Shown here piece after piece: positions 841-3,956 of a DNA stretch of 64,000 bases. Position 1 is the first letter of the stretch. Each line of letters begins with the position of its first letter. This DNA comes from Streptococcus mitis (lineage in GTDB: Bacteria; Bacillota; Bacilli; Lactobacillales; Streptococcaceae). Below the pieces are notes generated by a model. It was not told where the DNA came from, searched no databases, and worked only from the letters and a program-made list of their open reading frames with translations. The position numbers and the translations under genes are program-made. Where the stretch lies: the NCBI RefSeq assembly GCF_013305725.1, contig NZ_CP047883.1, positions 1,405,001 to 1,469,000 on the forward strand, read 5' to 3'.

Positions 841-869
841 AGTATAACATTTACTGTTAGCGTTTACAA
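841..869 (-). promoter_or_regulatory. nox promoter
   Basis: On the minus strand a -35 TTGTAA (864-869) and a -10 TATACT (841-846) are separated by 17 bases. They lie about 40 bases ahead of the nox ATG. Confidence 0.75.
855..868 (-). promoter_or_regulatory. cre (CcpA operator) over the nox -35
   Basis: The minus strand reads TGTAAACGCTAACA, which fits the cre consensus TGWAANCGNTNWCA at all 14 positions. It overlaps the nox -35 hexamer, a position expected to affect polymerase binding. CcpA binding is inferred from the match only. Confidence 0.75.
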
Positions 870-991: not shown

Positions 992-1020
992 TTGTGAAAA
1001 CGCTGACTTTATGGTATGCT
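992..1020 (+). promoter_or_regulatory. apbE operon promoter with cre-like site
   Basis: A -35 TTGTGA (992-997) is followed after 17 bases by an extended -10, TGG-TATGCT (-10 hexamer 1015-1020). The spacer holds TGAAAACGCTGACT (995-1008), which matches the cre consensus at 13 of 14 positions. The two divergent operons, nox and apbE, therefore each have a catabolite site inside the promoter. Confidence 0.65.
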
Positions 1021-1110: not shown

Positions 1111-2034
1111 TTGCCTCTTAGTTCACATTCTGAACGGCTAATGGGGACTACTATCACTATTTCATTAGTAGATGAGCGATCTGATATCTTGCTCCAAAAA
1201 TCTTTTGATTTGCTCAGAGAACTTGAATACCGCTTCAATGCCAATAGCCAAGAATCTGAGTTGATGGAGATTAATTATCAAGCTGGAATAGCTCCTGTCA
1301 AAGTCCATCCAGACCTGTTTGAACTGATTTCACTTGGATTAGAACATAGCCTAGCGCCCTCTAGTCATCTCAACATCAGCATTGGTCCCTTGATTCAAAC
1401 CTGGCGTATCGGTTTTTCAGATGCCAAAGTAGCGCAACCCCAAGAAATTGAATCGGTGCTACCTTTAATCAATCCTCATTCTATAGAGTTAGATTCTTCC
1501 ACTTCCACTGTATTCTTGAAACAGAAAGGAATGAAGATCGATCTTGGTTGTTTAGCCAAGGGTTATAGTGCGGATAAAGTTGCCCAATTTCTTAGAGAAG
1601 AGGGAGTGACATCTGCCTTGATCAATCTGGGAGGGAATATCCTGACTATTGGAAAAAATCAGGCAAGAGGAAATCAGCCTTGGCAAATTGGGATTCAAGA
1701 CCCAGCTAATCCTAGGGGAAATCACTTAATGACCATCCCTGTTGTCAATAAATCTGTCGTGACTTCAGGCATTTATGAACGTCACCTAACAATCGATGGA
1801 AAAGATTACCATCACATTTTTGACAGTCAAACAGGATATCCTGTTGAAACAGAACTTGCTAGTCTGACAATCATCTCTGAAAAATCAGTCGATGGTGAAA
1901 TCTGGACAACTCGATTCTTTGGAGAAAGACCTGCCTCTATCCTCTGGCAAGTCGAAAGTTTGGAGGGAATAGAAGCTATCCTCATCGATAAAGAAGGTCA
2001 CTTAAGCTGTTCTTCAGGAATTCCTACTCTATAG
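1111..2034 (+). CDS. apbE: FAD:protein FMN transferase (ApbE family)
   Basis: ApbE enzymes move the FMN half of FAD onto a Thr or Ser of target proteins, with Mg2+. Family motifs are visible: KIDLGCLAKGYSADKVA (near residue 145), INLGGNILTIG (near 173), and SGIYERHLTIDGKDYHHIFD with TGYP (residues about 215-245). The start is TTG at 1111, 8 bases after AAAGGAG; the ATG at 1141 is an alternative. There is no signal peptide or lipobox, so unlike many ApbE proteins this one should act in the cytoplasm. It leads an operon with two FMN-reductase-like genes, and the second carries a candidate flavinylation tail. At 307 residues it is close to family length without the export signal. Confidence 0.92.
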   Translation: MPLSSHSERLMGTTITISLVDERSDILLQKSFDLLRELEYRFNANSQESELMEINYQAGIAPVKVHPDLFELISLGLEHSLAPSSHLNISIGPLIQTWRIGFSDAKVAQPQEIESVLPLINPHSIELDSSTSTVFLKQKGMKIDLGCLAKGYSADKVAQFLREEGVTSALINLGGNILTIGKNQARGNQPWQIGIQDPANPRGNHLMTIPVVNKSVVTSGIYERHLTIDGKDYHHIFDSQTGYPVETELASLTIISEKSVDGEIWTTRFFGERPASILWQVESLEGIEAILIDKEGHLSCSSGIPTL

Positions 2035-2093
2035 AAATAGATATTTCAATAGAGTTTTAAAATCGTATTATGTAAAAAGAGAAAGGAAATCTC

Positions 2094-2699
2094 ATGTTAA
2101 AACTTATTGCTATTGTTGGAACAAATTCAAAACGTTCTACAAACCGCCAATTGCTTCAATACATGCAAAAACACTTTGCTGAAAAAGCTGAAATTGAGCT
2201 TGTTGAAATTAAAGACATCCCTGTCTTCAACAAACCAGCTGACAAGCAAGTACCTGTTGAAATTCTAGAAATTGCTGCTAAAATTGAAGAGGCAGATGGC
2301 GTTATTATCGGTACTCCTGAGTATGACCACTCTATCCCAGCTGTTTTGATGAGCGCTCTTGCTTGGTTGTCATACGGTATTTACCCTCTTTTGAATAAAC
2401 CAATCATGATTACTGGTGCTTCTTACGGTACGCTTGGTTCATCACGTGCCCAATTACAACTTCGCCAAATCTTGAATGCTCCAGAAATTAAAGCAAGTGT
2501 CCTTCCAGATGAATTCTTGCTTTCACATTCTCTTCAAGCTTTCAACCCAAGTGGAGACCTAGTAGATCTTGATGTTATCAAAAAATTGGATGCTACTTTT
2601 GACGACTTCCGTATCTTTGTAAAAATCACAGAAAAATTGCGCAATGCACAAGCACTACTTCGTAAAGATGCAGAAGACTTTGACTGGGAAAATTTGTAA
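2094..2699 (+). CDS. NADPH-dependent FMN reductase family protein
   Basis: This is a 201-residue flavodoxin-fold reductase. The phosphate-binding loop is GTNSKRSTNRQLL (residues 9-21). The family segment TPEYDHSIPAVLMSALAWLS follows near residue 78, and GASYGTLGSSRAQLQLRQIL near 110. Such proteins bind FMN and pass electrons from NAD(P)H to FMN, quinones or partner proteins. It lies 59 bases after apbE and 18 bases before a longer paralogue, to which it is clearly similar along its whole length. Unlike that paralogue it ends at DFDWENL with no tail. The pair may form a two-component or heteromeric reductase (inference). The physiological acceptor is unknown. Confidence 0.88.
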   Translation: MLKLIAIVGTNSKRSTNRQLLQYMQKHFAEKAEIELVEIKDIPVFNKPADKQVPVEILEIAAKIEEADGVIIGTPEYDHSIPAVLMSALAWLSYGIYPLLNKPIMITGASYGTLGSSRAQLQLRQILNAPEIKASVLPDEFLLSHSLQAFNPSGDLVDLDVIKKLDATFDDFRIFVKITEKLRNAQALLRKDAEDFDWENL

Positions 2700-2717
2700 G
2701 ATAGGAGACCAAAAAGA

Positions 2718-3956
2718 ATGAAATTTGTTGGACTTGTAGGATCAAACTACGATCAATCATATAACCGTAAACTCTTGGAATTCATCCGTCGTCACTTCAA
2801 ACTCAAATTTGAATTAGAAGTTCTTGAAATTGACGAAGTTCCAATGTTTAACCAAGACGAAAAATGGGACGAAAGTTTCCAATTACGTCTTTTGTATAAC
2901 AGAATTACACGTGCTGATGGTGTCATTATCGCTACTCCTGAGCACAACCACACAATCTCAGCTTCTCTTAAATCTGTTCTTGAATGGCTTTCATATGAAG
3001 TTCATCCATTTGAAAACAAACCAGTCATGATTGTGGGTGCTTCTTACTATGACCAAGGTACTTCTCGTGCTCAAGTTCACCTTCGTAAGATTCTTGACGC
3101 TCCAGGTGTCAATGCCTACACACTTCCTGGAAATGAATTCCTTCTTGGTAAAGCCAAAGAAGCTTTTGATGTTAATGGGAATATCATAAATGAAGGAACT
3201 GTTAATTTCCTTGAAACATGCTTGGACAACTTTGTAAAATATGTGGGAGTCGTTTCAAAATTGAAAAAACCAAAACCAATTGAACCAGAAGATTTATATT
3301 GTACAAATTCAATTGCAACTACCATCCAAGGTGTTGATCCAGATGATCCTGAATGGGTAGAAAAAGCAGCTGAGCTTGTTGGAGCTGTCTCTGGAGATAC
3401 TTACGTTAAATTAGACCATGGTATCTTGACAGTTAACCAAATTGATATGTTCTTGAAAGCAATGCCATTTGAATTGACATTTGCAGATGATAACAATCAA
3501 TTCTTGTACTTTAATAACGCACACCAAGACCCAGATACAATGTTTGGTAAACGTGTACGTGCTCAATCAGGAAATAGATTAGGAACAGTACACGGTACAT
3601 TACCAGATTCTAGAATGAAAAACGTTGAATGGGTTGTCGGTGTATTGCGTAACGGAGATCAAGAATATGTCCGTACAATTGTGCCAGGAACACCTGAAGG
3701 TGTTATTAATACCCATAATTACCAAGCAATGTACTATCCAGATGGTTCATATGCTGGAATTAATGAAATTATCTTTAATTTCCAACCATGGCTTGACTGG
3801 TACCTCAATACAACTGGTCAACGTTTAGTCGGTGGAAATGCTGCAGCTCCTGCTGGAGGACATGGCGGAGCAGATGCCACATCTGGAGCTTCTGATGCAG
3901 GTGATGCCGGTGGTCACGGTGGTGGCGCAGACGCTACATCTGGCGCAAGTAACTAA
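2718..3956 (+). CDS. FMN reductase with PAS-like domain and repeated flavinylation-motif tail
   Basis: The 412-residue protein has three parts. Residues 1-190 are a flavodoxin-like NADPH:FMN reductase (GSNYDQSYNRKLL; ATPEHNHTISASLKSVLEWL). Residues about 235-365 look like a PAS domain related to DUF438/PAS_10 proteins (QIDMFLKAMPFELTFAD, then FNFQPWLDWYL). Residues about 372-412 are a Gly/Ala/His tail. The tail contains DATSGAS twice, at residues 386-392 (3873-3893) and 405-411 (3930-3950). Each copy fits Dxx(S/T)GA(S/T), the sequence modified by ApbE, whose gene starts the operon. The likely acceptors are Ser392 and Ser411. The tail may thus carry FMN covalently; that is inference from the motif and neighbour. 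A terminator follows directly. Confidence 0.85.
   Translation: MKFVGLVGSNYDQSYNRKLLEFIRRHFKLKFELEVLEIDEVPMFNQDEKWDESFQLRLLYNRITRADGVIIATPEHNHTISASLKSVLEWLSYEVHPFENKPVMIVGASYYDQGTSRAQVHLRKILDAPGVNAYTLPGNEFLLGKAKEAFDVNGNIINEGTVNFLETCLDNFVKYVGVVSKLKKPKPIEPEDLYCTNSIATTIQGVDPDDPEWVEKAAELVGAVSGDTYVKLDHGILTVNQIDMFLKAMPFELTFADDNNQFLYFNNAHQDPDTMFGKRVRAQSGNRLGTVHGTLPDSRMKNVEWVVGVLRNGDQEYVRTIVPGTPEGVINTHNYQAMYYPDGSYAGINEIIFNFQPWLDWYLNTTGQRLVGGNAAAPAGGHGGADATSGASDAGDAGGHGGGADATSGASN

Follow-up and report, generated by a model that had tools for sequence, protein, structure and literature searches.

We analyzed a 64,000-nucleotide stretch of the Streptococcus mitis genome (NCBI RefSeq assembly GCF_013305725.1, contig NZ_CP047883.1, positions 1,405,001 to 1,469,000 of the forward strand; hereafter, the window) that contains a three-gene operon coding for the flavin transferase ApbE and two adjacent proteins of the flavin mononucleotide (FMN) reductase family FMN_red, denoted P2 and P3 (Table 1). 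P3 combines an FMN_red domain, a PAS_10 domain and a disordered tail with two copies of the heptad DATSGAS, i.e., of the Dxx[S/T]GA[S/T] motif of ApbE substrates. The explanation that we consider probable is that P2 and P3 form a heterodimeric FMN reductase that oxidizes reduced nicotinamide adenine dinucleotide (NADH), and that the PAS domain and tail of P3, charged with FMN by ApbE, serve as a flavin relay. This explanation draws on the conservation of the paired heptads, on the co-occurrence of P3 with ApbE, and on published relatives of the two reductases.

The heptads in the tail of P3

The preliminary description of this operon placed DATSGAS at residues 386-392 and 405-411 of the third gene product, and these positions, as well as those of the three genes, all hold in the open reading frames and their translation. 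At the DNA level, the two copies (21 bases each) agree in 15 bases and in only two of seven codons, indicating that they do not result from a recent duplication of DNA. Searching the 2.09-Mb genome with the back-translated pattern D..[ST]GA[ST] gave 18 matches, compared to 2 for the reversed-pattern control. Among open frames of at least 60 codons in the 3-kb loci around all 18 matches, P3 is the only one that carries the heptad in frame, and it carries it twice. In two other Streptococcus genomes, single heptads occur in frame 3 and 4 times, respectively, and by eye these frames appear unrelated. Because single heptads turn up by chance, a lone heptad is nothing unusual, unlike a conserved pair in the same tail.

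Such a pair was found in most of the named streptococcal loci examined. For the best 80 of 191 relatives, taken from named loci, the tail has two strict heptads in 71 cases, one in 8 and none in 1; the five best of these loci are from S. mitis and code for a P3 that is 99% identical. Conservation was assessed in 71 distinct DNA tails with at least two heptad-like units (L072, which contains a run of N, was dropped, and one single-unit tail was left out). Asp1, Ala2, Thr3, Ala6 and Ser7 are invariant in both copies, Gly5 is present in 70 of 71 tails in both copies, and Ser4 in 70/71 and 65/71. The heptad codons differ from tail to tail, as do the linkers between the copies, of which 24 distinct ones, 10-15 residues long, were counted. 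Deviations include DATAGAS as the second copy in two S. pneumoniae records (L014, L017) and five other loci, and the pair DATASAS and DATSSAS in strain DD10 (L039). This conservation, the genome-wide pattern count, the in-frame check, and the drift of codons and linkers rule out a chance motif.

The enzyme and its predicted substrate share a compartment. The N-terminus of ApbE has neither a hydrophobic stretch nor a lipobox, i.e., no signal peptide, confirming the earlier assignment of ApbE to the cytosol, and P3 begins straight with the FMN_red domain, without a signal. ApbE of this operon is the only one in the genome. A search of the same genome for a second ApbE target yielded no other in-frame heptad and no FMN_bind protein, and P3 itself lacks an FMN_bind domain (PF04205).

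The AlphaFold2 model of P3 (mean predicted local distance difference test score, pLDDT, 84.4; predicted template modelling score 0.73) is confident over most of residues 1-374, whereas residues 375-412 are unstructured, with pLDDT <50, in agreement with the idea of a flexible tail with two acceptor sites. Among the fold matches listed, the structural kin of the FMN_red domain are ChrR/YieF and FerB, and the closest solved fold of PAS_10 is 2qkp (the C-terminal domain of SMU_1151c). A distant PAS_10 homologue is present elsewhere in the genome, inside a 467-residue open frame (G000:C1:406943-407317).

Distribution of P3 and organization of the operon

We searched 147 genomes of Streptococcus (P3 threshold E <1e-100) and 246 genomes of Lactobacillales (E <1e-90); the two samples overlap by 17 genomes, and 27 of the 93 P3-bearing genomes in the order sample are from Streptococcus. 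The lists of P3 and ApbE were matched up by reading. In the genus sample, P3 is present in 121 genomes, a count that takes in partial or broken copies (G014, G015, G064, G077, G109, G125, G134), and all 121 have ApbE. Three of the 26 P3-less genomes also lack ApbE; G052 is scored as P3-less, yet a P3-like frame there runs off the contig end. In the order sample, P3 is present in 93 genomes, 93 of which have ApbE, and ApbE is present in 222 of 246 (Fisher p=7e-6, with phylogeny ignored).

Three ApbE-less genomes (G188, G275, G329) keep both reductase genes, and the P3 orthologue there is 201-206 residues long, with no PAS and no tail. These tail-less orthologues are placed within the P3 clade (99/96), suggesting that the PAS-tail module was probably lost. 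It should be noted that a cytosolic ApbE gene located between purine permease and thymidine kinase genes (names assigned by eye) was observed in two loci (L259 and L258, in G088 and G044), with neither P3 nor an adjacent heptad protein.

Beyond Streptococcus, we tabulated 60 P3-like proteins of 340-560 residues with scores >250 bits. A strict heptad is present in 48 of these, in 11 the only units are variants with Ser or Ala in position 5, and 1 has neither; a heptad strictly of the form DxxSGAS is rejected by these 11. The number of heptad-like units is 0 in 1 protein, 1 in 1, 2 in 19, 3 in 28, 4 in 10 and 7 in 1, the maximum (L175) including 6 strict heptads. P2 accompanies P3 in 58 of 60 cases, and apbE lies within the fetched stretch in 49. 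Ten loci with apbE in the stretch read D-x-x-[ST]-S-A-[ST] in every copy (L163, L165, L168, L204, L223, L226, L227, L228, L232, L236). In these tails Ser replaces Gly5 of the ApbE motif, a change to which the local ApbE is perhaps suited. A published substitution of Gly by Ala in the heptad left about 50% modification, so position-5 variants could still be partly modified.

The arrangement of domains varies as well. P0123 (882 residues; L160:3497-6145) combines a single FMN_red domain with three of PAS_10, and each of these is followed by heptad-like units; strict heptads are present after FMN_red, PAS 2 and PAS 3, and only Ser5 variants after PAS 1. Genera g65 and g71, of the same family and perhaps Lactococcus and its kin, include loci with two to four heptad-like units in the FMN_red tail and a separate heptad-less PAS-like protein (L184, L186, L188, L189; the PAS is confirmed by Pfam for L184 only), and loci whose stretch shows a single heptad and lacks a PAS (L181, L183, L191, L192, L194, L196).

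In Lactobacillus-like genomes (g9, the genus being taken from names of database relatives), the paired reductases, FRedA and FRedB, have no tails, and a PAS protein is coded at a separate locus. The apbE gene lies beside FRedA/B in 3/3 FRed loci fetched (L252, L253, and L251, which is cut by the stretch end). The PAS proteins, which resemble LjPAS of L. johnsonii, are 244-247 residues long, align to P3 from about residue 190, and carry three heptad-like units in seven of the eight fetched (L238-L243, L256). At least one strict heptad is present in 86 of the 92 database relatives examined (P0124-P0215; 92 of 120 listed among 203 matches). The L238-type proteins are candidate counterparts of LjPAS, with which they agree in domain, mass (28.0 kDa for L238), separate locus and FRedA/B neighbourhood. 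Lactobacillus-like genomes also code for a second, smaller PAS protein of 178-182 residues with one C-terminal heptad (L254:2714-3250, L244:2587-3135).

Within the window, apbE, P2 and P3 follow one another on the same strand, 59 and 18 bases apart, and the operon ends at a terminator-like hairpin (Table 1). P2 and P3 are adjacent paralogues with 41% identity. Upstream, a divergent gene for a Pyr_redox_2 flavoprotein, called nox in the preliminary description, starts at 802. In the 80 named streptococcal loci, P2 was counted by reading in 80, apbE in 79 and the divergent gene in 76, neighbor counts on which the early end of some loci bears; the locus with apbE outside the fetched stretch is L043, from S. 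vestibularis. As for the cre sites reported for the operon and the divergent gene, a candidate cre-like sequence lies near each of them, and the conclusion on aerobic redox balance that was attached to these sites is weak.

Table 1. Features of the apbE operon and its surroundings (positions in the window)
Feature	Positions	Strand	Basis
apbE: FAD (flavin adenine dinucleotide):protein FMN transferase, 307 residues, TTG start	1111..2034	+	Open reading frame; Pfam ApbE (PF02424) E=6e-77
P2: FMN_red protein, 201 residues, without tail	2094..2699	+	Open reading frame; Pfam FMN_red E=5e-35
P3: FMN_red, PAS_10 and disordered tail, 412 residues; predicted ApbE substrate	2718..3956	+	
FMN_red domain of P3, residues 1-147	2718..3158	+	Pfam FMN_red (PF03358) E=8e-34
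PAS_10 domain of P3, residues 242-355	3441..3782	+	Pfam E=3e-21
Gly/Ala/His tail of P3, residues 375-412, predicted disordered	3840..3953	+	pLDDT <50
Heptad copy 1 (DATSGAS) at residues 386-392, with Ser392 (codon 3891-3893) as predicted FMN site	3873..3893	+	
Heptad copy 2 (DATSGAS) at residues 405-411, with Ser411 (codon 3948-3950) as predicted FMN site	3930..3950	+	
Terminator-like stem-loop and T-run downstream of P3	3964..3982	+	
Candidate cre-like sequence upstream of apbE	995..1008	+	Match to cre consensus
Candidate cre-like sequence upstream of divergent gene (nox of the preliminary description)	855..868	-	Match to cre consensus

Proposed mechanism and alternatives

In the mechanism that we propose, P2 and P3 would be the subunits of a soluble heterodimeric NADH:FMN reductase, by kinship to FRedA/FRedB and HcrA/HcrB, and P3 would be fused to a carrier module made up of PAS_10 and, behind it, a disordered arm that bears the two acceptor heptads. 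The cytosolic ApbE, probably co-transcribed, would transfer one FMN from FAD to each of the residues Ser392 and Ser411. NADH would reduce a non-covalent FMN at the P2:P3 interface, and the tethered FMNs would receive electrons from this site FMN, acting like a swinging arm, i.e., as mobile second substrates that are not diluted. The arm could hand the electrons on to oxygen, with formation of superoxide or hydrogen peroxide (H2O2) as in L. johnsonii, or to a partner or ligand at the PAS domain. The steps as far as the site FMN are modelled on published relatives; flavinylation of P3 is predicted from the motif, the co-occurrence with ApbE and the Lactococcus result discussed below; the relay role and the acceptor are what we infer from the whole. 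That the FMN reductase is soluble and has a PAS domain was already part of the preliminary description, and this part stands; its choice of the phosphorylated cofactor NADPH is probably to be replaced by NADH, because FRedA/B of L. johnsonii used NADH only.

A wider proposal, on which we are close to evenly divided and lean to doubt, is that the combination of PAS_10 and a heptad tail acts in lactic acid bacteria as a portable, cytosolic domain that carries several flavins. It would occur fused (P3), triplicated (P0123) and free-standing (LjPAS), be charged by ApbE with up to several FMNs, and serve as a tethered second substrate of heterodimeric NADH:FMN reductases. LjPAS alters the rate of FRedA/B and slows its assembly, and its gene responds to oxygen (Valladares 2015, PMC4500961). 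The main text of that paper contains 0 occurrences of ApbE and 0 of covalent, for which reason the LjPAS that was made in E. coli was probably not flavinylated, and an unflavinylated carrier could look like an inhibitor. If so, LjPAS, published as a brake on H2O2 production by L. johnsonii, was assayed lacking its flavins and may truly be the electron acceptor of the enzyme.

A number of observations weigh against these proposals. The reported effect of LjPAS in vitro is that of slowing FRedA/B assembly, and not that of a substrate (PMC4500961). ApbE is published to favor Thr over Ser as the acceptor, and both sites of P3 are Ser. Our searches of the open-access literature yielded no description of P3, or of any PAS-tail protein, with covalently bound flavin. 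Tail-less reductase pairs are also present in G291 and G343 (L303, L304), which have ApbE in the genome, outside the fetched locus, and L189 has a heptad-bearing FMN_red with a PAS-like protein and no apbE in the fetched stretch. Some PAS proteins are without heptads, namely P0181 and P0215, both of normal length, the double PAS protein of G231, and the LjPAS-like L257:2834-3517, the tail of which reads unlike that of its relatives, as if frame-shifted. The copies of L307 are all of the DxxASAS type. The preliminary description had singled out homologues that keep apbE and lack the heptad as the case that would tell against flavinylation. Such homologues are mostly the position-5 Ser/Ala variants, and the nearest true cases are the P3-like L225, with apbE in the stretch and both copies without Asp (NAVSSAS, HAVSGAS), and L185 and L187, in which FMN_red adjoins ApbE and has only DADTGST.

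The most direct alternative to the relay is cofactor anchoring, in which the tail only keeps the FMN_red site from losing its prosthetic FMN and the extra heptads are back-ups. Huang et al. (2024, mSystems, PMC11334425) read the Lactococcus tails in this way, FRedA/B holds FMN weakly (dissociation constant of about 2 uM; isolated with 0.58 FMN per dimer; PMC4500961), and the short L192 and L196 proteins, which have one heptad right behind FMN_red and no PAS, suit simple anchoring and likewise speak against a relay. We consider anchoring unlikely for P3, however, since a PAS domain separates the site from the tail, the Lactobacillus heptads are on a separate protein, and heptads exceed FMN_red sites, with 6 strict ones in L175, and with units after each of three PAS domains and a single FMN_red in P0123. 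Still less likely, in our judgment, is a sensor, i.e., a PAS domain that binds the tail FMN or another ligand and tunes heterodimer assembly in response to redox state or oxygen, as was proposed for LjPAS. Slower assembly and the oxygen-responsive gene are in line with a sensor, other PAS folds bind heme or flavin, and seven polar PAS residues (N259, N260, Q261, H292, H333, N349, E350) are invariant among 65 aligned relatives; conversely, a signalling output domain is absent, two to several heptads per PAS exceed the needs of one ligand pocket, and the best structural kin, 2qkp and 3cax, have titles that are uncharacterised or domain-only.

The terminal acceptor could also be an organic compound and not oxygen. 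HcrB of L. plantarum reduces hydroxycinnamates, and the HcrA/HcrB-like pairs are nearest to P2/P3 among the types in our tree; P3, however, has neither the FAD_binding_2 nor the FMN_bind domain of the HcrB-like P0122, and we regard an acceptor of this kind as rather unlikely. That the tail stays unmodified in the cell while ApbE serves another protein is highly improbable: the two streptococci with a cytosolic ApbE and no evident target agree with it, whereas the conservation of the heptads, their loss along with ApbE, the flavinylated relatives, and the window genome, in which no other in-frame heptad and no FMN_bind protein were found, all speak for P3 as the substrate.

If the relay is correct, ApbE flavinylation yields cytosolic, multi-site, mobile flavin carriers, a role beyond preventing the loss of flavin outside the cell. 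It would also give a reason for the conservation, among streptococci, enterococci and lactobacilli, of a gene set acting on NADH and perhaps on oxygen. Assays of LjPAS, which has been published as modulating H2O2 output, would then have to include ApbE.

Comparison with known systems

The closest published proteins are FMN_red proteins linked to apbE, mostly from Firmicutes, in which an unstructured extension at the C-terminus bears one to two motifs and which are described in the accessible part of PMC11334425; those of L. lactis and L. taiwanensis are flavinylated, as demonstrated by sodium dodecyl sulfate polyacrylamide gel electrophoresis under ultraviolet light and by Ala mutants. P3 belongs to this type, having PF03358, a C-terminal extension with the motif, and apbE in the cluster. 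That account of these proteins names neither a PAS domain nor a partner subunit. P3 has PAS_10 between the reductase and the tail and is paired with P2, and among its relatives as many as six strict heptads occur, or the tail is on a separate PAS protein. Thus, the preliminary description read the sequence correctly and went too far in calling a motif on such a tail new. Flavinylation of FMN_red tails and the combination of paired reductases with a PAS protein (PMC4500961) were already known; what is apparently new is the occurrence of heptads on PAS proteins and their number, the triplication of the module, and the loss in common with ApbE. The more interesting lead is in lactobacilli. In the open-access literature (subscription papers lie mostly outside it), we found no paper in which ApbE is connected with LjPAS or with a fusion of PAS and FMN_red.

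FRedA and FRedB of L. johnsonii form a heterodimer that oxidizes NADH but not NADPH and forms H2O2 (PMC4500961). They share with P2 and P3 the two adjacent FMN_red proteins and the PAS_10 partner; the difference is that P3 is the fused form, and the authors of that paper noted fusions of LjPAS to FMN reductase in other lactic acid bacteria. In a review on HcrB (PMC10295242), HcrA is proposed to stabilize a heterodimer with HcrB, and the pair is likened to the coupled FMN reductases of L. johnsonii. Together, the published FRedA/FRedB and proposed HcrA/HcrB heterodimers support the earlier suggestion that the small paralogue P2 is the likely partner of P3. In the tree, P2 groups with HcrA-like proteins (100/98) and P3 is placed beside HcrB-like proteins (88/89), both names being assigned by architecture; the second Lactobacillus FRed protein groups with a sister set (84/73), and the first has no resolved place. 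Like HcrA/HcrB, P2 and P3 are a small FMN_red partner beside a large FMN_red fusion, but HcrB-like P0122 continues with FMN_bind, which carries a heptad, and FAD_binding_2, where P3 has PAS_10 and the tail. Accordingly, P3 was rejected as an HcrB/fumarate-reductase-like member, being kin through the FMN_red domain only.

The engineered Flavin-tag, a seven-residue terminal tag that is sufficient for modification by ApbE (reviewed in PMC12052999), shares with P3 a heptad on a flexible terminus as the ApbE target, predicted in the case of P3; the P3 heptad differs in being natural, repeated and conserved. The paired FMN_red reductases of P2/P3, HcrA/B and FRedA/B suggest one design, in which an input module is followed by a covalent FMN intermediate and a variable output.

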